Positions 1-8,782 of a stretch of DNA of 27,452 bases are shown here, piece after piece (the stretch's first letter is position 1; the number at the start of each line of letters is the position of its first letter). The stretch is taken from positions 1-27,452 of IMG/VR virus record IMGVR_UViG_3300024346_000409, one strand, 5' to 3'. The notes under the pieces are model-generated. The model had not been told where the DNA came from. It did not search any database and was given only the letters and a program-made list of their open reading frames with translations. The position numbers were made by a program, and so were the translations under genes. The stretch comes from a virus.

Positions 1-222
1 AAACTTTCTAGTAAAGGTATCCGGAGTATCTACCCTAATCTCGTTAAGGATGTCAATAAATAGGCCTTTTAAGCTAGGATAATCAAATACCTTTATATCT
101 CCATCCCATTGGAACGGCATATGCTTAAGAAAGGCTTTTAAAGGGATAGTAAAAATCTCCATATCTCTATTAGTGCAGTATAGTTTTTTGTCCTGAGTAT
201 TTAATCTAAATGTCGTTATCAT
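1..222 (-). CDS. Hypothetical early protein, 3' part beyond window
   Basis: The frame is open from the ATG at 222-220 to the left edge of the window (74 codons), so the C-terminus is missing. The protein begins MITTFRLNTQDKKLYCTN. I see no catalytic motif, membrane segment or low-complexity stretch and do not recognise the family. The start lies 4 nt after the stop of the upstream gene (227-454), so the two are probably co-transcribed. It is the last visible gene of the leftward early group. Confidence 0.6.
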   Translation of the reverse strand, partial: MITTFRLNTQDKKLYCTNRDMEIFTIPLKAFLKHMPFQWDGDIKVFDYPSLKGLFIDILNEIRVDTPDTFTRKF

Positions 223-226
223 CTTT

Positions 227-454
227 CTAGTTGTTTTGTTTTTTTGAATAAATTTCGTGCAGTTGGTCTAGCTCGTTGATTACCTCGTCTTGGATATCCT
301 CAAAGGGAATCTGTGTACTGAAGTTTTTCTCTGCAGCTAGAAATATCTGCTCATTTAAATTGTTGATTGGTTTCTTTTCTATCCCCTCTCTTAAAGATTC
401 GAGATATAAGGCTAAAACCGCTGCCTCCATTTTTTCTAATTGAATGTTTATCAT
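227..454 (-). CDS. Hypothetical small early protein (75 aa)
   Basis: A short, mostly helical, acidic protein beginning MINIQLEKMEAAVLALYLES. Family not recognised. It starts 3 nt after the T-tract of a terminator hairpin that closes the upstream gene, and no TANNTTTG promoter is visible in the short gap. Expression therefore probably depends on read-through or antitermination. It is followed after 4 nt by the partial gene at the left edge, forming a two-gene unit. Confidence 0.55.
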   Translation of the reverse strand: MINIQLEKMEAAVLALYLESLREGIEKKPINNLNEQIFLAAEKNFSTQIPFEDIQDEVINELDQLHEIYSKKQNN

Positions 455-456
455 AA

Positions 457-484
457 CAAAAAAAATAAAGCCTCCGTAGAGGCT
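457..484 (-). terminator. Rho-independent terminator with UACG tetraloop
   Basis: On the minus strand a perfect 6-bp stem AGCCTC/GAGGCT closes a TACG loop (469-484), giving the very stable C(UACG)G tetraloop. It is followed by TTTATTTTTTTTG. It lies just after the stop of the 491-802 gene and its T-tract ends 3 nt before the ATG of the next gene. Confidence 0.85.
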
Positions 485-490
485 GGTTAA

Positions 491-802
491 TTAAAATGGC
501 CCATGCCAATCGTAGTTACTTGGGTCAAGCATCTCATTTCTGAACTCCTCTACTATCTCCTCCTCTTTATCATCGATAACATCTTTGATGATTTCTAATT
601 GTTCAGCAGTATAGTCTTTAGAGTTTTCAACTGTAATACTATAAATATCTAAAACATAGTAAGCAGGCTCCCATCTTGTCTCGGGGTGAGAGTACTCTTT
701 GAAAGAGATGTCTAACAAAGGCATATTGTCAATAATTGCCTGATTTCCCTCAAAGATATCCTCTAAAAATGTGCATTCTGTATTAGCTGTGTAGGTAGTC
801 AT
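491..802 (-). CDS. Highly acidic early protein (103 aa)
   Basis: The protein carries about 25 Asp/Glu against about 6 Lys/Arg, with an acidic run near residues 77-86 (DDKEEEIVEE). No domain recognised. It has its own promoter (851-881), a 5' leader with two AACGACATG elements, and its own terminator (457-484), so it is an independent early transcription unit. Strong acidity, small size and early expression would suit a DNA mimic or a protein inhibitor, but that is inference from composition only. The ATG at 802-800 is chosen because it sits in the same TTTTAACGACATG context as the start of the rightward gene at 1683. Confidence 0.65.
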   Translation of the reverse strand: MTTYTANTECTFLEDIFEGNQAIIDNMPLLDISFKEYSHPETRWEPAYYVLDIYSITVENSKDYTAEQLEIIKDVIDDKEEEIVEEFRNEMLDPSNYDWHGPF

Positions 803-847
803 GTCGTTAAAAGTTTAAAAGTGAATTAATAATTAATCATGTCGTTA
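800..847 (-). promoter_or_regulatory. 5' leader with paired AACGACATG elements
   Basis: The leader between the -7 box and the 491-802 gene has AACGACATG both near the predicted transcript start (838-846) and at the real start codon (800-808). The upstream copy opens a four-codon reading frame (M-I-N-Y, stop at 826-828). The arrangement mirrors the leader of the divergent gene at 1683. Confidence 0.45.
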
Positions 848-850
848 GTA

Positions 851-881
851 CAAAGATAACTATTTTTTCATTCTTTGCAAA
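851..881 (-). promoter_or_regulatory. Bacteroidota-type promoter for the acidic protein
   Basis: On the minus strand the -33 box TTTG (881-878) and the -7 box TATCTTTG (858-851, matching TANNTTTG) are separated by 19 bp. This matches the Bacteroidota sigma-factor consensus. The -33 box is one half of a TTTGCAAA palindrome (874-881), so a protein bound there would block RNA polymerase. Confidence 0.75.
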
Positions 882-914
882 TTATTTGCAAAGATATTTA
901 TATTTATTTGCAAA
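874..914. promoter_or_regulatory. TTTGCAAA operator array, left copy
   Basis: Three perfect TTTGCAAA palindromes lie at 874-881, 885-892 and 907-914. Their centres are 11 and 22 bp apart, so all face the same side of the helix, with one slot left empty near 899. The first contains the -33 box of the leftward promoter; the last ends one base before the stop of the RusA gene. A matching array lies at 1568-1609. Probable binding sites of an early regulator; the protein is not identified. Confidence 0.6.
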
Positions 915-915
915 T

Positions 916-1272
916 TTATTCCACGTCCTCTATTATTATCTCTACTCGCTGGTCTACTCTTTTGCTCTTAATCTGTTGGGGCAAGAACTTAGTAACTATA
1001 GATGGCTTATCATCGACGATTACTCCTAAATCTACAAGAGCATCCCCTATATGCTTAAAGCTTGCACTAAAGTTATCCCAATCCATCAGAATAGATTTAT
1101 AGCCTATGTAATGGATAATAACTTTGCCCGGATGTTTGTTTGGATTCTGCTCTCTACATAATATCGTATATAGATTTTTTCTTTTCTTGGCATTTCGGAA
1201 GTGCTCTCGTATTAGTCCATGCTTGCCATTAAGTCCGGGCACTATTCCCTTAATCGTTATTACTGTTCTCAT
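916..1272 (-). CDS. rusA: RusA-family Holliday junction resolvase
   Basis: A 118-aa protein of normal RusA length. The family core is visible: an acidic pair in MDWDN (D64, D66, N67), a lysine at 73, D77 in GDALVDLG, and a second acidic pair at D87-D88 in IVDDKP. These match the metal-binding aspartates of RusA endonucleases, which cut four-way junctions. In phages they resolve recombination or branched replication intermediates before packaging. The gene overlaps the end of the upstream 87-aa gene by 23 nt, so the two are translationally linked. It complements the ERF and exonuclease genes on the other side of the control region. Confidence 0.8.
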   Translation of the reverse strand: MRTVITIKGIVPGLNGKHGLIREHFRNAKKRKNLYTILCREQNPNKHPGKVIIHYIGYKSILMDWDNFSASFKHIGDALVDLGVIVDDKPSIVTKFLPQQIKSKRVDQRVEIIIEDVE

Positions 1273-1513
1273 GTTGTATTATTAGGTAATCTCTACCATC
1301 CCTATAATATGCAAGCTCAAAAAAATCTAATAATCTCCTCTGTGTTGTAGCACTAAAAGACATTCCATCATTTTTTTTGTGGCTGGCCTTGATGCTGTTT
1401 ATTGTTCTCCAGGAGACAGGAAAGGGATTCGGCGTAGAAAGGTTAGTAATGTTGTGGTCTTGCATATAGTCTACTATACGTTCACAGATTACCTTTTTGG
1501 TACATTTTTTCAT
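1250..1513 (-). CDS. Small putative helix-turn-helix protein (87 aa)
   Basis: A basic N-terminal half (MKKCTKKVICERI) is followed by predicted helices with a turn around residues 32-45 (VSWRTINSIKAS) and a helix near 54-68 (ATTQRRLLDFFEL). The layout recalls compact Cro/C1-type DNA-binding domains, but the match is weak and is my inference. It is the first gene of the leftward unit driven by the promoter at 1546-1576, immediately beside the operator array. That position fits an autoregulatory early switch protein. The downstream rusA gene overlaps it by 23 nt. Confidence 0.6.
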   Translation of the reverse strand: MKKCTKKVICERIVDYMQDHNITNLSTPNPFPVSWRTINSIKASHKKNDGMSFSATTQRRLLDFFELAYYRDGRDYLIIQHENSNND

Positions 1514-1545
1514 TTTATTTTGTGTTTTGGTTATTGAATACCCTA

Positions 1546-1576
1546 CAAATATAGCTATTTTAAACTATTTTGCAAA
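1546..1576 (-). promoter_or_regulatory. Bacteroidota-type promoter for the HTH-rusA unit
   Basis: On the minus strand TTTG (1576-1573) and TATATTTG (1553-1546) are 19 bp apart, an exact match to the Bacteroidota consensus. The -33 box lies in the first palindrome (TTTTGCAAAA, 1568-1577) of the operator array. The distance from palindrome centre to -7 box is the same as at the 851-881 promoter. Confidence 0.75.
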
Positions 1577-1609
1577 AAAGATGCAAATAAATTGCATAAA
1601 ACTTGCAAA
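1568..1609. promoter_or_regulatory. TTTGCAAA operator array, right copy, between divergent promoters
   Basis: Four TGCA-centred sites lie at 1569-1576 (TTTGCAAA), 1580-1587 (GATGCAAA), 1591-1598 (AATTGCAT) and 1602-1609 (CTTGCAAA). Their centres are exactly 11 bp apart each time. The first covers the -33 box of the leftward promoter and the last covers the -33 box of the rightward promoter. Occupancy of the array would therefore control both directions. The same palindrome is repeated at 874-914. Confidence 0.65.
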
Positions 1610-1633
1610 ACATTGTAAGATATATTATCTTTG
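1602..1633 (+). promoter_or_regulatory. Bacteroidota-type promoter for the rightward early genes
   Basis: CTTG (1602-1605) and TATCTTTG (1626-1633) are separated by 20 bp. The -7 box is identical to that at 851-858. The -33 box is weaker (TTG rather than TTTG) and lies in the fourth palindrome of the operator array. It should drive the rightward early genes from 1683. Confidence 0.7.
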
Positions 1634-1648
1634 ATACTATCAAACGAC

Positions 1649-1678
1649 ATGAATATTTTTTCTCACTTAAAAATTTAA
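1649..1678 (+). other. Possible nine-codon leader ORF
   Basis: The first AACGACATG of this leader, about 15 nt after the -7 box, opens a reading frame M-N-I-F-S-H-L-K-I that stops at 1676-1678, four nt before the real start codon at 1683. The second AACGACATG provides that real start. Such an upstream ORF could tune translation, but no Shine-Dalgarno or conservation can be shown here. Confidence 0.3.
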
Positions 1679-1679
1679 C
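1655..1679 (+). repeat. Leader repeat, copy 1 (25 bp)
   Basis: An exact 25-bp direct repeat with core CTCACTTAAAAATTTAAC, shared with 2024-2048. Each copy sits directly before a start codon (1683 and 2053). A diverged copy with an ACTTAAAAAC core precedes the gene at 2322. An antisense relative lies at 3579-3605. Probably a common translation-initiation or regulatory leader. Confidence 0.7.
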
Positions 1680-1682
1680 GAC

Positions 1683-2000
1683 ATGAATAAGTCTAAAGTA
1701 ATGACTATCGCTCACTCTGTAAAATCTCACTTCCCTACATTTGCCGATGCACTTCGTTTTGCTTGGGCCAAAGTAAAAATCTCTACTAAGCTTGCTAAAG
1801 GCTTGTGCTTCTTTACATTCACTAAAAAGAGCACAGGAGAGGAAAGAGATGCTCTAGGTACTACTAACTTTGACTACATCAACTACGAGTACAAAACTTG
1901 CTACTATCGTACAAAATGGTATCTACAGACCTTTTGGGATACCAACAAAAACGATTGGAGATGTTTAGATATCCGTACACTAAACGTTATCCATTGGTAG
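1683..2000 (+). CDS. DUF2693-like protein with SH3-type fold (105 aa)
   Basis: The N-terminal helical segment VMTIAHSV...FADALRFAWAKVK and the later beta-rich part with FTFTKKSTGEERDALGTTN resemble the DUF2693 family, common in Bacteroidota phages and mobile elements. These are predicted small beta-barrel proteins of unknown function. The C-terminal half is rich in Trp and Tyr. It is the first gene after the rightward early promoter. It is followed by a terminator (2003-2030), so it should be made in larger amounts than the genes downstream. Confidence 0.65.
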   Translation: MNKSKVMTIAHSVKSHFPTFADALRFAWAKVKISTKLAKGLCFFTFTKKSTGEERDALGTTNFDYINYEYKTCYYRTKWYLQTFWDTNKNDWRCLDIRTLNVIHW

Positions 2001-2002
2001 TA

Positions 2003-2030
2003 AAGGGAGGAGCAATCCTCTCTATTTTTT
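2003..2030 (+). terminator. Intrinsic terminator with GCAA tetraloop
   Basis: AGGGAGGA pairs with TCCTCTCT (eight pairs, one G-U) around a GCAA loop (a GNRA tetraloop), followed by ATTTTTT. The T-tract is also the start of the second leader repeat, so terminator and leader are merged 23 nt before the next ATG. It probably attenuates the genes from 2053 onward. Confidence 0.7.
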
Positions 2031-2048
2031 CTCACTTAAAAATTTAAC
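2024..2048 (+). repeat. Leader repeat, copy 2 (25 bp)
   Basis: Identical to 1655-1679, 369 bp downstream. Here its T-run doubles as the U-tract of the terminator hairpin at 2003-2022. No promoter with TANNTTTG is visible before it, unlike copy 1. Confidence 0.7.
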
Positions 2049-2052
2049 AATA

Positions 2053-2274
2053 ATGGAAATGCAAATATATTTCAACTCCCCTAACAACATAGATGCTCAA
2101 GAAAGAATCTGCGAGCAAATCTTAAACCATATGCAGATAGAATGGGCCTGGCACGACCTACCATCCGACCATATTGCTATAGATATGGTAAAGATGATAG
2201 ATTATGATGTCTATAAAGCTTTAGATATTTTTCAAAAACTAGGCATAGAATTCTCCTATAAACAGGAGGATTAG
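2053..2274 (+). CDS. Hypothetical early protein (73 aa)
   Basis: A small acidic protein beginning MEMQIYFNSPNNIDAQERIC, with no recognised domain, membrane segment or cysteine motif. It lies between the DUF2693-like gene and the recombination genes, and its start follows the leader repeat. A weak hairpin (CTCCT/AGGAG, 2253-2268) overlaps its last codons but lacks a T-tract. Confidence 0.55.
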   Translation: MEMQIYFNSPNNIDAQERICEQILNHMQIEWAWHDLPSDHIAIDMVKMIDYDVYKALDIFQKLGIEFSYKQED

Positions 2275-2321
2275 TATATTTACCAAACGACAATTATTTT
2301 TTTTACTTAAAAACATTCAAA

Positions 2322-2912
2322 ATGGAGATTATCAAATTAACGCCACAACTATGGCAAACATTAGAAATTAGCGAGCTATCTAAAGCACTTATTAGCTTTG
2401 CTCAAGACTTTCAGAAAGCATCCCTTAAGAAAGATGCTAAGAATCCGCACCTCCGTAACAAGTATGTATCCTTAGATGGTCTACTCAATACAGTTAGACC
2501 TATCCTAACTAGACACAAACTTGCAATCACTCAAGACCTAGCAGGAGAATACATTGTTACTACGCTTATGCACGAATCTGGGCAGTACAAAGGTAGTGCT
2601 ATGCCGTTTAATCCTATGTCTGGGAACAAAGGAACTAACAACTTGCAGCAGATAGGAGGAGGCATAACCTACGCTAAACGTTATGCTATCTCTGCGCTCC
2701 TAGCTATCTCCGTAGATACGGACGATGATGGGAATAGCATGAACGGTCAATCTCTGAATGTTAAAAAAAAGGCTAAGCTGCCTGTAGGTATGTATGGAAT
2801 GGCCGGAAAAGCTTTTAAAAGAGATGGCAATTTTAATGCTGTCGAAAAGCAATATACCCTAACCGATGATATCAAAAAAACTATTCTATCTAACTTAGAA
2901 AACTCTAAATAA
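2322..2912 (+). CDS. erf: ERF-family single-strand annealing protein
   Basis: A 196-aa protein with the ERF pattern: an N-terminal region with YVSLDGLLNTVRPIL (about residues 49-63), the central HESGQYKGSAMP segment, and the hallmark QIGGGITYAKRYAISALLAI followed by DTDDDGN (about 110-137). ERF proteins anneal complementary single strands. Here it is directly followed by a YqaJ-type exonuclease, whose ATG comes immediately after this stop. The pair forms a two-component recombination module like lambda Bet/Exo. The C-terminal 60 residues are basic and less conserved. Confidence 0.88.
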   Translation: MEIIKLTPQLWQTLEISELSKALISFAQDFQKASLKKDAKNPHLRNKYVSLDGLLNTVRPILTRHKLAITQDLAGEYIVTTLMHESGQYKGSAMPFNPMSGNKGTNNLQQIGGGITYAKRYAISALLAISVDTDDDGNSMNGQSLNVKKKAKLPVGMYGMAGKAFKRDGNFNAVEKQYTLTDDIKKTILSNLENSK

Positions 2913-3578
2913 ATGGAATGGATTAATATGGAGCAGAATAGTCCTGATTGGTTTAACATCCGATTAGGACTATTCACTAGCTCACAAATATACAATCTCT
3001 TTGTAAAAGGCAAAGGAGGAGGATTGTCTAAATCTGCAGAAACATACATAACACAAAAGGCTATAGAATCTATCTATCCAATAGAAGTAGAGGGATTTAG
3101 CTCTAAAGCTATGGCTTGGGGCACAGAACACGAGGATAGTGCCAGGAACGTATATGAGGTTATGTCTGGAAATGAAGTAACAAATGGAGGATTCTATGTG
3201 TTTGATGAGAATACCGGTAGCTCTCCAGATGGTCTTATTGGAAATGATGGCATAGTAGAGATTAAATGCCCTTATACTAGAATAAATCACATCAACAATG
3301 TTATCAATCTAAGGGATGATGTAGACCTATATAAGATGTACAAGCAATACTACTATCAAGTGCATCATCAGATGTTTTGCTCTGGCCGTTCGTATGTAGA
3401 TTTTATGTCTTTTGACCCACGTTTGTTAGAACATAAGAACTTTTTACACGTAATCCGCATTGAAAGAAATGAGGATTTAATGGATAGGATGGCAGAAGTT
3501 ATCTACGAGGCTGGAAAAAATAAAAATGAAATTATAGATAAATTCAATTCCATTAGGAATAACATCTCTTTCTCCTAG
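2913..3578 (+). CDS. YqaJ/lambda-type viral recombinase exonuclease
   Basis: A 221-aa protein with the usual family length and motif order: WFNIRLGLFTSS (13-24), AMAWGTEHE (66-74), SPDG with D106, and the VEIKCP core with E116 and K118. D-ExK forms the metal centre of this PD-(D/E)XK nuclease. It degrades one strand of double-stranded DNA ends to expose single strands for the ERF protein encoded just upstream. The stop and start codons are adjacent (TAAATG), which supports coupled translation. Confidence 0.88.
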   Translation: MEWINMEQNSPDWFNIRLGLFTSSQIYNLFVKGKGGGLSKSAETYITQKAIESIYPIEVEGFSSKAMAWGTEHEDSARNVYEVMSGNEVTNGGFYVFDENTGSSPDGLIGNDGIVEIKCPYTRINHINNVINLRDDVDLYKMYKQYYYQVHHQMFCSGRSYVDFMSFDPRLLEHKNFLHVIRIERNEDLMDRMAEVIYEAGKNKNEIIDKFNSIRNNISFS

Positions 3579-3605
3579 TTTTTAAGTGAAATTTCATGTC
3601 GTTAT
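3579..3605 (-). repeat. Antisense relative of the early leader
   Basis: Read on the minus strand this stretch has AACGACATGAA, then TTTCACTTAAAAAC, the same order as the leaders before 1683 and 491-802. No promoter or obvious gene follows it on that strand. It may be a leftover of an inverted duplication or a binding site for the same factor. The rest of the gap up to 3686 holds the terminator at 3616-3648 and AT-rich sequence. Confidence 0.4.
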
Positions 3606-3615
3606 TTAATTTCAC

Positions 3616-3648
3616 AGGAGAGGCTTTAATTAGTCTCTCCTTTTTTTT
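3616..3648 (+). terminator. Rho-independent terminator after the recombination genes
   Basis: AGGAGAGGC pairs with GTCTCTCCT (one internal mismatch) around a short A/T loop and is followed by eight T. It closes the ERF-exonuclease unit. The next rightward gene starts 38 nt later with no clear promoter in between. Confidence 0.85.
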
Positions 3649-3686
3649 GTATATTTATATCATTACATAATTAAACATAACTAAAA

Positions 3687-4031
3687 ATGAAAGGCATAGA
3701 TAACCTAAAAAAAGTAGTCCGTTGGAATACTGACTTAATCGATGAAATCTTTTCACTTATCGAAAAAAAGAAAGGCAAGAAAGTTACAGGATGGGTAGCT
3801 CTTAAGTTCTTAGACAACATCTTTGCTCTGTTCCCTATCTTATCAAACTACAAAGAGATAGGAGCTGAATGGGTAGATTTAGACGAGGCAGAAAAGCAAG
3901 AGATTAAAGCACTTGTTAAGGCTGAGCTAGATATTAAGGATGATTTCTCGGAGGAGCTTGCAGAACGTTTGTTCTATATCATCATAGAGCTAGGTGATTT
4001 TATTGCATTCGTAGTAGAAGCTAAGAAATGA
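3687..4031 (+). CDS. Hypothetical protein (114 aa), partner of the endolysin gene
   Basis: A mainly helical protein with a lysine-rich N-terminal third (IEKKKGKKVTGW) and an acidic C-terminal half. Two moderately hydrophobic stretches (about 39-52 and 95-108) are too broken by charge to be convincing membrane segments. It overlaps the start of the amidase gene by 4 nt (ATGA), so the two are translationally coupled. That makes a role in lysis or host-wall processing possible, but no family is recognised. Confidence 0.6.
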   Translation: MKGIDNLKKVVRWNTDLIDEIFSLIEKKKGKKVTGWVALKFLDNIFALFPILSNYKEIGAEWVDLDEAEKQEIKALVKAELDIKDDFSEELAERLFYIIIELGDFIAFVVEAKK

Positions 4032-4939
4032 GAGTATTATTAAGCAAAGGTAGTAGAGGCTCTCAAGTAAAGGAGCTACAGATAAAGCTAAACAAGATTC
4101 TAGGTAATACTGTTTCAGTAGATGGTATCTTTGGAGATGGCACAAGCCAAGCAGTAAAACAATTCCAAGCAGATTACGGATTGAAAGTAGATGGAATTGT
4201 AGGGAATTATACTTGGGTAGCTATTGACCTGGAGAGCAATAAAGAATCCAATAATCTTATGACCTTTGCCAAAAGTCGGTTTGTAGTTTTTGTAGATGCT
4301 GGACATGGTGGCATAGATATGAATGGCATCTACGCTACAGCCGGTAAACGTGCATTCCATCCAGAATATGAGCTACACCAAAATGGCCATTATTTTGAGG
4401 GATATGAAAATAGGATAGTAGCTGAGATGTTTATAGAAAAATGCACACAAGCAGGAATCCAAACAATAAGAACCTACCATCCCTACAAAGATACTCCATT
4501 ACTAGAAAGAGCTAGTTTAGTTACCGATTATCTGCATAGAGGATATTACGGATATATGCACTCTTTCCACTCGAATGCTATATCTAGTAGCAACAGCAAA
4601 GATAAGCTCGAAAACACCAAAGGATTTAGCGTATATACTACTACAGGGCAGAACTATTCTGATAAGATTGCAGATGTTCACTTTAAGCATATGAAAACTG
4701 CTCTCCCCGATTGGAAATTTAGAACACAAGACAAAGATGGAGATGCTGATTATGAATCCAATTTCTATATCCTAAGACATACAGACTTAGAGCATTTTAC
4801 TAAGTTCGGAGCTATCTTAGAGGAATTTGGATTCCATACATCAGGTCAAGACTGTGAATTTATAGTGAATCACAGAAAACAAAGAGTACAGGCTGCATTA
4901 GCTACAGCTATTTGGACAAAGATAAAGATGCAGTATTAA
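4028..4939 (+). CDS. Endolysin: N-acetylmuramoyl-L-alanine amidase with peptidoglycan-binding domain
   Basis: Residues 5-67 form a PG_binding_1 domain (SKGSRGSQVKELQ...VDGIFGDGTSQAVKQFQ...VDGIVGN). Residues 84-300 form an Amidase_3-type catalytic domain with zinc ligands H93 (DAGHGG), E127 (GYEN) and H181 (SFHSN), and a likely catalytic glutamate at 265-266 (LEEFGF). It would cut the amide bond between MurNAc and the stem peptide to lyse the host. No signal peptide is seen, so it probably needs a holin. The holin-like gene lies just beyond, on the opposite strand. Confidence 0.9.
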   Translation: MRVLLSKGSRGSQVKELQIKLNKILGNTVSVDGIFGDGTSQAVKQFQADYGLKVDGIVGNYTWVAIDLESNKESNNLMTFAKSRFVVFVDAGHGGIDMNGIYATAGKRAFHPEYELHQNGHYFEGYENRIVAEMFIEKCTQAGIQTIRTYHPYKDTPLLERASLVTDYLHRGYYGYMHSFHSNAISSSNSKDKLENTKGFSVYTTTGQNYSDKIADVHFKHMKTALPDWKFRTQDKDGDADYESNFYILRHTDLEHFTKFGAILEEFGFHTSGQDCEFIVNHRKQRVQAALATAIWTKIKMQY

Positions 4940-5043
4940 GAGGCTTTTTTTAAGGCCTTTTTTTCTTTTATCCTTTCGGCTTTATCCTTAATCTTTTGTC
5001 TAATACCTTTAAGCTCTCTCTGAATCTCTTTTATATCTCTCAT
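4936..5043 (-). CDS. Small lysine-rich coupled peptide (35 aa)
   Basis: The ATG at 5043-5041 overlaps the TGA of the holin-like gene (ATGA). The frame runs 35 codons to a TAA at 4938-4936, which shares a TTAA with the amidase stop on the other strand. The peptide begins MRDIKEIQRELKGIRQKIKD, is very rich in Lys, Arg, Glu and Ile, and should form one charged amphipathic helix. Too short for confident assignment, but the start overlap is the same type used elsewhere in this operon. It may be a cationic partner in lysis; this is inference. Confidence 0.45.
   Translation of the reverse strand: MRDIKEIQRELKGIRQKIKDKAERIKEKKALKKAS
4938..4965 (+). terminator. Probable terminator after the endolysin gene
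   Basis: AAGAGGC can pair with GCCTTTT (seven pairs with one G-U) around a T-rich loop, followed by further T residues. It lies at the junction of the rightward and leftward transcription units. Part of it also encodes the end of the 35-aa peptide on the other strand. Confidence 0.5.
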
Positions 5044-5306
5044 AAGACTGTTGATATTTTCTCCATCTTTTCATCGATAGAATTCATAATAACGGATAAG
5101 CTATTAAGGGTCTCAATATGTTCTACCTCTCGCTCTCTTACATAAGTATTAAGCTCCTGTATCTTTTGCTCGTGCTCCTTACGCTCTGTACGTACTAAGG
5201 CCTTTTCCTCCTTATACATCTTTAGCAGCTGCCAGATGATAAGTCCACAAAGAATTATTAAGGGAGATTGCTCAGCAAATCTCTGAAATAAAATATTAAC
5301 ATCCAT
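5040..5306 (-). CDS. Holin-like membrane protein (BhlA/UviB type)
   Basis: An 88-aa protein with one N-terminal membrane segment (about residues 14-29, SPLIILCGLIIWQLLK). A long charged coiled-coil tail follows (30-88, YKEEKALVRTERKEHEQ). This single-span plus coiled-coil layout is typical of BhlA/UviB-type holins. Position at the end of the late operon, next to the endolysin gene, supports a lysis role. A spanin-like or other membrane role cannot be excluded. It is followed by the overlapping 35-aa peptide gene. Confidence 0.65.
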   Translation of the reverse strand: MDVNILFQRFAEQSPLIILCGLIIWQLLKMYKEEKALVRTERKEHEQKIQELNTYVREREVEHIETLNSLSVIMNSIDEKMEKISTVL

Positions 5307-5307
5307 A

Positions 5308-5901
5308 TTAGTATATTCCGTTTTCTACTATTTGTTCAAAACAATTTTCTAAAGTTTCTGTATAATAAGGCTTAGCTAAAAAGCCATCAACAGAATGAAA
5401 CCATACTATGATTGCATGGTCATTTACATTAATAAAACTCTCAAGCATCAAAGCTACTGTAGTAAATAAATCTACTCTATCTGCTACAGTCATTAGATAT
5501 CCCATGTGTATCTTTGCTGCATCTACTCTGTCTTGTCTACATACTATAGATGCATCTGCGTGATTAGAGAAATTACTCTCATCTTGTGGTTTTGTGTATA
5601 CTTGTAGCCTTAGAACCTTATCATCTATAATCATCCTCTTAGCTAGACATCTCATTTCATCTAGTGTACATTGGGCCCATTTGTCTGCCTCTGTTTCTCC
5701 TGGCAAAGCCTCAAACAATAAAGCCATCTCTTTGGTAGCTCTTACATAATCTGCAGCATAACCACCATACAAGTCATTATCTATTATGCTTGTGATATCA
5801 AACCATCCTATTAATGGAATATCACTATATTGATATGGATACACTCCACTAACTTGCTCGTTAATAAATGGAACTCCTATATCTTTTCTGTATAAATTCA
5901 T
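5308..5901 (-). CDS. Hypothetical late protein (197 aa)
   Basis: A soluble protein with mixed helical segments, beginning MNLYRKDIGVPFINEQVSGV. It has no recognised motif. It starts 3 nt after the stop of the upstream 193-aa gene and ends 1 nt before the holin-like gene, so it belongs to the same late unit. It follows the fibre-like gene, which would fit a minor tail or fibre-associated protein, but this rests on position only. Confidence 0.6.
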   Translation of the reverse strand: MNLYRKDIGVPFINEQVSGVYPYQYSDIPLIGWFDITSIIDNDLYGGYAADYVRATKEMALLFEALPGETEADKWAQCTLDEMRCLAKRMIIDDKVLRLQVYTKPQDESNFSNHADASIVCRQDRVDAAKIHMGYLMTVADRVDLFTTVALMLESFINVNDHAIIVWFHSVDGFLAKPYYTETLENCFEQIVENGIY

Positions 5902-5904
5902 TTT

Positions 5905-6486
5905 TTAAGGTTTTTCAGCATCAATTATTTTCCATCTCTCCTCTATTCCATCATAATAAATCACAATAGCACTATACTTTTTTGTGTTATTTGTTGACCT
6001 TTCAATAGGAAAGATTCTATTTTCAGGCAAGCTATTAGCGTTATTGTATAGATAGGATAATATATCACTTGATTCATTTCTAAGTATTTTAAAATCTCCA
6101 CCATAAGTACGTTGTAATCCGCTTATGTAACGTGTACCACTACCCTCAATATTGACTATTTTGGCATTATAAAACCCTGTAGGATTATAATTATGTGATG
6201 TGGTTGCTACAGGTATATCTGTTATAACTGTGTACATAGTGCCGTACAAAGGTAGTAAAGTCATAAACACTCCATCATCTTGGTCTTTAATACTTATGTC
6301 TTTTGCTTGCAACAAAGTCTCTAGCTCTGCATTAGATTCTACATCCTCCATACTGAATCCACCATTAACATCAGCAAACATATCGATATCTACTGCACCA
6401 TTAGATAACACGAAATTATCTAGGCTAGTAATTGTAATAGCTGAACCTGAAAGATTAGTAATTTTAAACTCGGTTAAATTTATCAT
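5905..6486 (-). CDS. Hypothetical late protein, possibly fibre-associated (193 aa)
   Basis: The first half is beta-rich with Ser/Thr-rich strands (ITNLSGSAITITSLDNFVL) and resembles phage fibre or baseplate decoration proteins in composition. No specific family is recognised. The gene overlaps the end of the fibre-like gene by 4 nt (ATGA-type), indicating translational coupling to it. Confidence 0.6.
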   Translation of the reverse strand: MINLTEFKITNLSGSAITITSLDNFVLSNGAVDIDMFADVNGGFSMEDVESNAELETLLQAKDISIKDQDDGVFMTLLPLYGTMYTVITDIPVATTSHNYNPTGFYNAKIVNIEGSGTRYISGLQRTYGGDFKILRNESSDILSYLYNNANSLPENRIFPIERSTNNTKKYSAIVIYYDGIEERWKIIDAEKP

Positions 6487-7466
6487 ACTTTAGTTATTTG
6501 TACATTTGCCTCAAAAATCCTAGCACTACCATTACCATTGTTAGATAGCTGTAGCTGTATTGTGTTTACTCCTGCAGATAATGCCACTCGTTTAGATATA
6601 GACTCGTAAAATATCTCATCATTATCCTTTCTTTCTCTTTTGTATGGCTGGCTAAAAATATCAGTAGAGTTTACTTGTGGATTTACTACTATCCTACCAT
6701 TGTTAGAAGTACAAAAAGCTAGAAAGCTAATCTCAAAATAGTAAGTACCACCACTAACAGTTATAGTGTTTGTTATCTCTGTGCCTCCTTGAACAAAAGT
6801 AAAGTATTCTATATCTACTGCTGTAGTATTATTGATTGTCTCTATCCTTTCTAGGTAGAACTGCTCTGGAGCTCCTGCACTATTAGTAACTGTGATATCT
6901 GTTCCTGTAGAGGATAAAGATATTCCACTACCAGCTACCAAGCTTTTAAACTCTAAGTCTTGTGCTGTCTTTTGTGCAAACACTCCCTCTCCTGCTCCTA
7001 AGTTACTTGCTGTATTTACCTCTCCTACTCCTGTAACATCTAGCGTTAAATCATCAGTATTATTAGTGATTGTAAGATTATTGCCAGCAATTAAGCTTTT
7101 AAACTCTAAATCGATTCCATTCTTTTGCTTGAATACACCAGAACCACCACCAACATTACTAGCAGTATTAGCCTCGCCTCCTCCTCCTGGAGTAGTAGCA
7201 TCTCTTGTTACACTTGTTCCTCTAACTACAACAGATTTACTAAGATACTTAACAACATCTTGCAGATTGCCTATTGTTGTACCGGATTGATTCTGTATGT
7301 TAGCTAGTTTATCTGTTCTAAATACTGTCCTATCCTCATTGTTAAATATAGTAACATCATCATTCTCTATCCTATAGATTGCTTTGTTTCTAGGGATATT
7401 TAATAAAGGCTGTGATGTTTGGTCTATCTCTACAGTATCGCCACTTATGTATACTTTCATTGCCAT
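6483..7466 (-). CDS. Tail fibre-like protein with two tandem repeats
   Basis: A 327-aa protein with a short N-terminal domain (1-80), a PGGGG linker (93-97), and two repeats of about 51 residues (starting at residues 97 and 148). Each repeat has GExNTASN, GVFxQK, DLEFKSLxAG and a Thr/Asn-rich strand pair. Such repeats are known from trimeric phage fibres, where they form a stalk. The C-terminal part (about 200-327) looks like a beta-sandwich head (NGRIVVNPQVNST) and could bind a host receptor. Its place after tail-tip genes fits a receptor-binding fibre. Confidence 0.7.
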   Translation of the reverse strand: MAMKVYISGDTVEIDQTSQPLLNIPRNKAIYRIENDDVTIFNNEDRTVFRTDKLANIQNQSGTTIGNLQDVVKYLSKSVVVRGTSVTRDATTPGGGGEANTASNVGGGSGVFKQKNGIDLEFKSLIAGNNLTITNNTDDLTLDVTGVGEVNTASNLGAGEGVFAQKTAQDLEFKSLVAGSGISLSSTGTDITVTNSAGAPEQFYLERIETINNTTAVDIEYFTFVQGGTEITNTITVSGGTYYFEISFLAFCTSNNGRIVVNPQVNSTDIFSQPYKRERKDNDEIFYESISKRVALSAGVNTIQLQLSNNGNGSARIFEANVQITKV

Positions 7467-7468
7467 AA

Positions 7469-8782
7469 TTAACAGTTGATTTTTCTATCATCCTCAGTCC
7501 TATCTGAGAAAGTAAGGTTAACATTTACACCCCTATCAGTAACAAAATATTCAGTACCAGCATTACCCTCAAGTTTAACAGGAAAAACTTCATACTTGTA
7601 GCTATGGTTATTGCCATTGTAGTCAGATACAAATAGCTCTTTACCAAACAACATAAAATCAAACAGCTCCTCTGTGATACAATCAGGTAGCTGTAGAGCT
7701 TGATACTTGTACTCTTTCTTGCTGCTCATTGTATTCTGCTTAAAGCTATAATCTCTCTGCGCTATATTGTCTTGCTCATAGCTGTACTCTGGATTGCCAA
7801 AGTATCCTCTAACTCTTAGAGATGTAGTGTATCCGCTATTTAAAAAGTCAGTATCTATAGCTACTAGCTTGCCATCAATAATACTATCTAGTCTTACTGT
7901 GCCATTGGCTTTCTGGATGCTAAAAGATTCTAAACTATAGGTATCACTAAGCAAGTCTACAGATAATCCGGCTATCGTTAGCTCTTTCTTTATCTGATAT
8001 ACTCCCTCTCCTAGTAAGATTAAAACTTTTCTCCAATCTACAGTATAGTAGCTTAAATCATTCTGCACTCCTCCAAAGTCTTGGAACGTTCCATAGGTAG
8101 CATCATTCAAGGCATATTCTGTAGTAGTTACTACATCTACAAGCTTAAAATCTACTGTACTGTTTGGCGTTTCTCGTTTAAAATAGCTGCCTGTAAAGTC
8201 ATTTTTGTAAGGGTCTGCATCTGCAATATCTGCTAATACTAGGTTTTTGTAACAGCACTTACTAAACCCTCTATCTACAGGAGCTTGCTCAGGTAGCTTT
8301 ACCTTTACTGCATAGCCTAATGTACGCTCTGATGTAGGGCATAAATCTTGCTCTCTACTATCTAAGCAATCCTCACAATTAGTATAACTATTAAATGCTG
8401 TAGTAACTACCTCGTCTGCTCTGCTCTCCTCACCTACAAATGTCCAGCAATCACATTCGCCACTAATTTTAAAAGTGCCAGGAGCAGCAGCAGTAGGAAA
8501 GCCAAAGATACGCTCTACTCCTGTTTCACAATTCCTATACTTAAATATGTCATAACTAGGAGAGCATGTGTTCTCTGTAGCTACTCTTAGAACAGGAATA
8601 GTGTTAACGCATTTGGACGTATCTTGTCCTGTATAAACCAATGTATAGGTATCTAATGGATTAGCACCATCGATATAGACTACTAATAAGTTATATGGAT
8701 GTGATGGTGTATCCCAACATAGATTAACTATATCTGGATAGCTCGACGGATTGCAACTGTTTAAACTGTATAAGAATGCCAT
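7469..8782 (-). CDS. Cysteine-rich structural protein, probable baseplate or tail tip
   Basis: A 437-aa protein whose first 180 residues carry more than a dozen cysteines, including CDCW (109-112), NCEDC (135-139) and CC (176-177). The rest is beta-rich with few cysteines. This pattern suggests a metal-binding or disulfide-bonded N-terminal domain joined to a virion domain. No catalytic motif. It is encoded between the 849-aa structural protein and the fibre-like gene, so it is probably part of the tail tip or an adsorption apparatus. Confidence 0.6.
   Translation of the reverse strand: MAFLYSLNSCNPSSYPDIVNLCWDTPSHPYNLLVVYIDGANPLDTYTLVYTGQDTSKCVNTIPVLRVATENTCSPSYDIFKYRNCETGVERIFGFPTAAAPGTFKISGECDCWTFVGEESRADEVVTTAFNSYTNCEDCLDSREQDLCPTSERTLGYAVKVKLPEQAPVDRGFSKCCYKNLVLADIADADPYKNDFTGSYFKRETPNSTVDFKLVDVVTTTEYALNDATYGTFQDFGGVQNDLSYYTVDWRKVLILLGEGVYQIKKELTIAGLSVDLLSDTYSLESFSIQKANGTVRLDSIIDGKLVAIDTDFLNSGYTTSLRVRGYFGNPEYSYEQDNIAQRDYSFKQNTMSSKKEYKYQALQLPDCITEELFDFMLFGKELFVSDYNGNNHSYKYEVFPVKLEGNAGTEYFVTDRGVNVNLTFSDRTEDDRKINC

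Follow-up and report, generated by a model that had tools for sequence, protein, structure and literature searches.

Phased TGCAAA repeats over early promoters of a Bacteroidota-type phage as candidate operators of a small regulator

The closest described system to the locus analysed here is that of Apl from coliphage 186, an HTH protein of 87 aa that recognizes 6-bp direct repeats at 10–11 bp, seven of them at pR–pL and five at attP, and represses early promoters (PMC7498355). The repeat cores at 186 pR–pL, read from the phage sequence, include TTGCAAA and TGGCAA. Upstream of its promoter, Alt of TP901-1 uses four direct repeats of imperfect sequence between −76 and −32 (PMC13123087), the lambda CII tetramer reads a direct TTGC repeat about one turn apart near −35 (PMC9986795), and P2 C is a small HTH phage repressor acting on direct repeats, not palindromes (PMC4752584). 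BldC (PMC5859096) and RdfS (PMC11963761) form head-to-tail oligomers on DNA with about one turn per subunit, BldC doing so on direct repeats. For the early-gene switches of Bacteroidota phages, little experimental work was found in the literature searched.

The window, the whole stretch of DNA analysed, is a 27,452-base virus record whose left end holds an early-type region and whose minus strand carries the structural genes; the host group is Bacteroidota-type bacteria. From the left end, a 103-aa gene, array 1, rusA, an 87-aa gene and array 2 are followed on the plus strand by WYL_2, ERF, YqaJ and amidase genes (Table 1). The 87-aa gene and rusA had been called correctly in the original prediction, with rusA backed by phrog_1682 (E 2e-7), and the two are probably co-transcribed.

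Table 1 Features of the early-type region at the left end of the window
Feature	Position	Strand	Basis
103-aa gene, no assigned function; first of leftward operon served by array 1	491..802	−	Pfam/PHROG searches
−7 box, TATCTTTG on minus strand, array 1 leftward promoter	851..858	−	Promoter pattern
Array 1 site 1, TTTGCAAA, overlaps leftward promoter −33 box (CAA 878–880)	874..881	+	Exact match
Array 1 site 2, TTTGCAAA, about −44	885..892	+	Exact match
Array 1 vacant in-phase position, ATTTATAT	896..903	+	Intact site here in relative G001/L005
Array 1 site 4, TTTGCAAA, about −66, just 3′ of rusA stop	907..914	+	Exact match
RusA-like Holliday junction resolvase	916..1272	−	phrog_1682, E 2.3e-7
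87-aa putative regulator, NPFPVSWRT family, proposed array binder	1250..1513	−	Array-bearing homologues, HTH_3 link, AlphaFold
−7 box, TATATTTG on minus strand, leftward promoter of 87-aa gene and rusA	1546..1553	−	Promoter pattern
Array 2 site 1, TTTGCAAA, on leftward promoter −33 box	1569..1576	+	Exact match
Array 2 site 2, GATGCAAA	1580..1587	+	In-phase TGCA; kept in L005, L006
Array 2 site 3, ATTGCATA, weakest site	1591..1598	+	In-phase TGCA; L006 reads TTACGTAA
Array 2 site 4, CTTGCAAA, on rightward promoter −33 box (TTG 1603–1605)	1602..1609	+	In-phase TGCA
−7 box, TATCTTTG, rightward promoter of WYL_2/ERF/YqaJ operon	1626..1633	+	Promoter pattern
WYL_2, SH3-like, 105 aa; first gene of rightward early operon	1683..2000	+	PF10902, E 1.4e-10
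ERF annealing protein and YqaJ exonuclease genes, rightward operon	2322..3578	+	PF04404, PF09588

The sequence shows directly where the sites lie, how they are phased and oriented, that they are conserved and overlap promoters, and that they co-occur with the gene. Seven palindromes had been proposed; four are exact copies of TTTGCAAA, whereas sites 2–4 of array 2 share the TGCA core only. Counting the palindrome through the rest of the window, as the original prediction had suggested, turns up none beyond the four exact array sites (expected 0.89, s.d. 0.89; 4 was reached by 0 of 100 shuffles of the window). The proposed spacings of 11 and 22 bp in array 1 and of 11, 11 and 11 bp in array 2 hold, with the TGCA cores of array 2 starting at 1571, 1582, 1593 and 1604 in exact 11-bp steps, and the phasing that places the sites on one helical face is both present in the window and kept in relatives. 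TGCA pairs at 11 bp number 5 in the window, against a dinucleotide-shuffle mean of 0.62 (maximum 5, 300 shuffles), and in-phase TGCA triples arise in 2 of 300 dinucleotide shuffles of the window. Within a wider set of 124 sequences (0.9 Mb, in which the window and one relative are represented by overlapping copies), scanned at spacings from 6 to 33, constant-spacing TGCA triples at 11 bp are confined to the window and that relative; the sole other constant-spacing triple is one match at 30 bp.

Each of three intergenic promoters has its TTG within one of the sites, as had been claimed. The leftward promoters of array 1 (TTG-N19-TANNTTTG, 880 to 851) and array 2 (TTG-N19-TANNTTTG, 1575 to 1546) share the same offset, and the rightward promoter of array 2 reads TTG-N20-TANNTTTG (1603 to 1633). 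With a TANNTTTG −7 box, a TTG near −33 and spacings of 19, 19 and 20, all three have the form of Bacteroidota sigma-A promoters; the −7 motif of flavobacterial sigma-A reads TAnnTTTG (PMC9723704). Across related contigs, each promoter carries a site on the −33 box and more at about −44, −55 and −66. The array 1 sites of the window fall at about −33, −44 and −66, with −55 vacant, and all four are present in the relative G001.

Besides the window, four viral contigs encode homologues of the regulator, at 74% identity in G001 and about 52–57% in G005, G006 and G012 (55% in the best segment for G012), and a fifth contig, G002 (L006), appears to begin inside the regulator gene, with array 2 alone visible. 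The records of this phage group are all metagenomic and possibly incomplete, and the genomes are few. Throughout six related contigs, the unit is a TGCAAA direct repeat in one orientation, recurring at steps of 11 bp, sometimes of 10, within two arrays. Both arrays of G001 (L005) consist of four TGCA sites at exactly 11 bp; in G012 (L127) each of the two arrays numbers five sites, in steps of 10, 11, 11, 11 and 11, 11, 11, 10, with one site reading CGCA; the arrays of G005 are shorter and partly degenerate, and G006 shares with G005 its array-1 pair and its array-2 promoter pair. TGCA occupies 32 of 38 in-phase positions in nine arrays. When the −33 sites are left out, an A is kept 3′ of TGCA in 34 of 38 cells, versus 18 of 38 for the mirror T on the 5′ side (Fisher p 1.5e-4, the related genomes not being independent). 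Because the 3′ A is kept far more than the 5′ T, the repeats are directional and the unit is better written TGCAAA; what had been described as palindromes are better seen as same-direction repeats, of which the TTTGCAAA palindromes are a subset.

The promoter geometry is also shared. In each of the five relatives compared, 22 bp separate the right −7 box from the site on the right −33 box. The predicted divergent −33 boxes would be 33 bp apart in the window, G001 and G002, 22 bp in G005 and G006, and 44 bp in G012, which suggests that this spacing always changes by whole 11-bp units among relatives. At the left −33 box of G012, CTTG is retained although TGCA is lost there, and an extra site lies within the right −33/−7 spacer of the same contig. 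A search for phased sites at early promoters of related phages, proposed earlier as a check, finds both arrays and spacing conserved. This conservation among relatives is stronger evidence for real phasing than the chance statistics.

The 87-aa regulator has no credible direct match in Pfam or PHROG. It is probably an XRE-type HTH protein, for which the best evidence is an indirect profile link through G014: the syntenic protein of that contig matches both HTH_3 (E 2.2e-5, score 24.9 against a cut-off of 23) and the regulator family profile (E 1.9e-5, probability 77.6%). AlphaFold models of the regulator (pLDDT 82–83) have the order alpha–alpha–alpha–beta–beta, a winged-helix-like arrangement that fits the HTH_3 link uneasily. 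Two such models gave no solved structure at E ≤ 0.001 in Foldseek, and a PDB sequence search was uninformative. INPHARED yielded zero matches, both at the DNA level with window positions 1–8000 and in tblastn with the regulator, and a regulator-profile search of genome contigs yielded no confirmed relative. More small proteins akin to the regulator profile, some with NPFP, are encoded in G001 (5353–5806), G003, G004, G011 and G013.

Arrays and regulator gene occur together: contigs with an 87-aa-type gene beside rusA carry arrays, and contigs without the gene carry none, which supports the earlier interpretation as regards the adjacent small HTH-like gene. In G003 and G004, which have rusA and ERF (seen in the G003 locus L008), we found no rusA-adjacent regulator, no WYL_2 and no pair of TGCA at 11 bp anywhere. 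As these two contigs have lost both WYL_2 and the regulator gene, the co-occurrence rests on few genomes. G014 has rusA and WYL_2, with a diverged HTH protein in the slot before rusA and no array there; its single TGCA pair at 11 bp lies elsewhere in the genome. WYL_2 was considered as the array binder and is disfavoured, because it is present without arrays in G014.

Similar repeats are found in other viral contigs. Among the matches listed, four TGCA at 11 bp fall in simple tandem repeats, coding sequence, replication-initiator genes and Alt-like late promoters, and with matches of so many unrelated kinds the bare pattern cannot alone identify the system. A stricter scan of the viral collection, coupled to a −7 box, returned 16 stretches, with three matches in G001 only. 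Genes of the Alt-like (phrog_2198) or phrog_248 kind have four TGCA at 11 bp directly 3′ (L243 1692, L256 11446, L168 5584, L257 2278, L193 2297), and these arrays are probably late-promoter operators. Repeats of TGCA at 11 bp inside replication-initiator or primosomal-like genes (L154 6613, L162 8175, L164 1171, L209 3445) are probably origins. G001 also contains four 11-bp direct repeats of GAGCAACCATC type within a DnaD-like helicase-loader gene (L259 7545–7597), which may be a replication origin distinct from the TGCAAA arrays. In L297 (4666–4740 and 4792–5154), an HTH_19-like gene precedes an integrase gene and has four TTGCAACA-type repeats at 10–11 bp on its upstream side; this locus may be an independent instance of such a design. 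Beside a Bacteroidota-type −7 box, L301 (10), L303 (4674) and L305 (minus strand, about 1577–1628) each have three TGCAAA-type repeats spaced by 11 bp, which in L303 and L305 lie upstream of a 143–155-aa gene of no assigned function. In L298 (3608), three TGCAA repeats spaced by 11 bp stand where a HicA toxin gene starts and are possibly its operator.

Our main reading, to which we give a rough probability of 0.57, is that the arrays are cooperative operators of the 87-aa protein, which would regulate its own and the flanking early promoters, probably as a repressor. The operators would be made of short directional TGCAAA sites, one per helical turn, and the protein, encoded between the arrays, would bind several adjacent sites cooperatively on one DNA face. 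Its targets would be its own promoter (HTH–rusA), the divergent recombination operon (WYL_2–ERF–YqaJ) and the next leftward operon, so that three promoters, two arrays and one small candidate regulator would form a compact operator system. We infer the identity of the binder, the cooperativity of binding and the sign of the regulation. Bound protein would block RNA polymerase; occlusion seems most likely because the promoters are otherwise complete and the outermost sites of the arrays coincide exactly with their −33 boxes. As a negative autoregulator resembling Cro or Apl, the protein would lower early transcription once it had accumulated, and negative autoregulation is favoured by the array over its own promoter, by the separate −33 box of G012 and by the G012 spacer site. 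Of the original prediction of a regulator that shuts or opens the early region, the sites at three promoters are confirmed; the sign cannot be read from sequence. If the protein does bind, repression would be the probable outcome, activation a distinctly weaker prospect and a combination of both unlikely.

Activation is a serious rival because the four direct repeats bound by Alt, at −76 to −32, have nearly the same geometry. The same protein and sites would then recruit RNA polymerase from the −33 to −66 repeats, with positive autoregulation, as for Alt or lambda CII. Site number and position match the description of Alt (PMC13123087), the array 1 sites all lie on or upstream of the −33 box, as is typical of activators such as Alt, and among the matches listed 11-bp arrays of four TGCA do stand directly 3′ of Alt-like and phrog_248 activator genes. 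In all three promoters, however, TTG and TANNTTTG are already present and normally spaced, the sites coincide with the −33 bases, one G012 site is inside the right promoter spacer and the regulator's own promoter is covered by an array, and we consider activation unlikely. A different question is the binding mode, compatible with repression or activation: each adjacent TGCA pair could be one operator of an XRE dimer, with half-sites one turn apart, four sites making two lambda-like operators. In favour of this, XRE dimers place their recognition helices about one turn apart, TGCA is self-complementary, the regulator is linked to HTH_3, and the HTH_19-like gene of the L297 phage sits beside four repeats at 10–11 bp. 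Paired half-sites are nevertheless a doubtful proposition in view of flanks conserved on one side and in one direction at all sites, with no alternating inverted half-sites, and of arrays with three and five sites.

Intrinsic DNA curvature caused by phased A-tracts, or binding by a host regulator, in place of a phage protein site would suit the A-runs that follow most TGCA cores at 11-bp steps, but the TGCA letters are kept across diverged relatives and the arrays are missing from relatives without the regulator gene, which makes it very improbable. An iteron-type replication origin, named earlier as the main alternative, seems more improbable still: the repeats are short, phased and in AT-rich DNA, and many other matches with four TGCA, among those listed, are inside replication-initiator genes, yet here there are two separate arrays, both on −33 boxes. 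Iterons would lie in or beside an initiator gene, whereas the DnaD-like gene of G001 is far from the arrays and has its own four repeats. Least probable of all, the repeats would be the att-arm sites of a recombination directionality factor such as Apl, Cox or Xis, with a secondary promoter role. The arrays are indeed one-turn direct repeats of the Apl/Cox/Xis kind, with the same geometry as those of 186 Apl (PMC7498355; L289), but no homology to Apl is detectable, and tyrosine integrase (PF00589) was found in 0 of 10 and serine recombinase (PF00239) in 0 of 9 of these possibly incomplete records.

The reading of the arrays as cooperative operators of the 87-aa protein can be extended. It is conceivable, at odds well short of even, that a small XRE/HTH_3-related family of Bacteroidota-type phages polymerizes head-to-tail on one-turn repeats; with the −33 boxes themselves as terminal operators, the whole early region would be tuned by counting 11-bp units (22, 33 or 44 bp from one divergent promoter to the other). 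Whole-turn changes in promoter spacing are a directly testable rule.

Compared with known systems, the locus most resembles that of 186 Apl (and of the P2 Cox and lambda Xis type), with which it shares a protein of 87 aa, one-turn direct repeats, two arrays and similar site letters. Direct homology of the regulator to Apl was rejected (hhalign probability 0.1%). No integrase was found in the group of the window, and the 186 promoters are face-to-face with sites between them, whereas those of the window diverge and have their sites on the −33 boxes. TP901-1 Alt has nearly the same four-repeat geometry, and Alt-like loci carry four TGCA at 11 bp, but the Alt promoter is a late one, as opposed to early-type promoters that include the regulator's own; the regulator had no match to phrog_2198, phrog_248, DUF722 or the Alt/ArpU/RinA-like families. 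Lambda CII, an activator of lysogeny genes with no homology detected, has the site TTGCN6TTGC, that is, two repeats 10 bp apart instead of four or five at 11 bp. We regard Apl, Alt and CII as functional parallels without detectable homology. P2 C differs in having just two 8-bp repeats, 22 bp apart, and BldC and RdfS are winged-HTH proteins of the MerR/RDF kind, unrelated to the regulator in the searches made. Like lambda Cro and XRE repressors, the regulator is predicted to head one of two divergent early operons and to control its own expression, and it is indirectly linked to HTH_3, whereas Cro operators are inverted repeats of 14–17 bp in place of same-direction TGCAAA repeats. The original suggestion of a distinct design is not supported by this comparison, as one-turn direct repeats are already present in 186 Apl, TP901-1 Alt and lambda CII, and similar arrays of four TGCA occur in unrelated phages. 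With no integrase found and no detectable homology, the one-turn direct-repeat design of coliphage 186 recurs here: the layout is real and kept in relatives, and its kind is already known from other phages.
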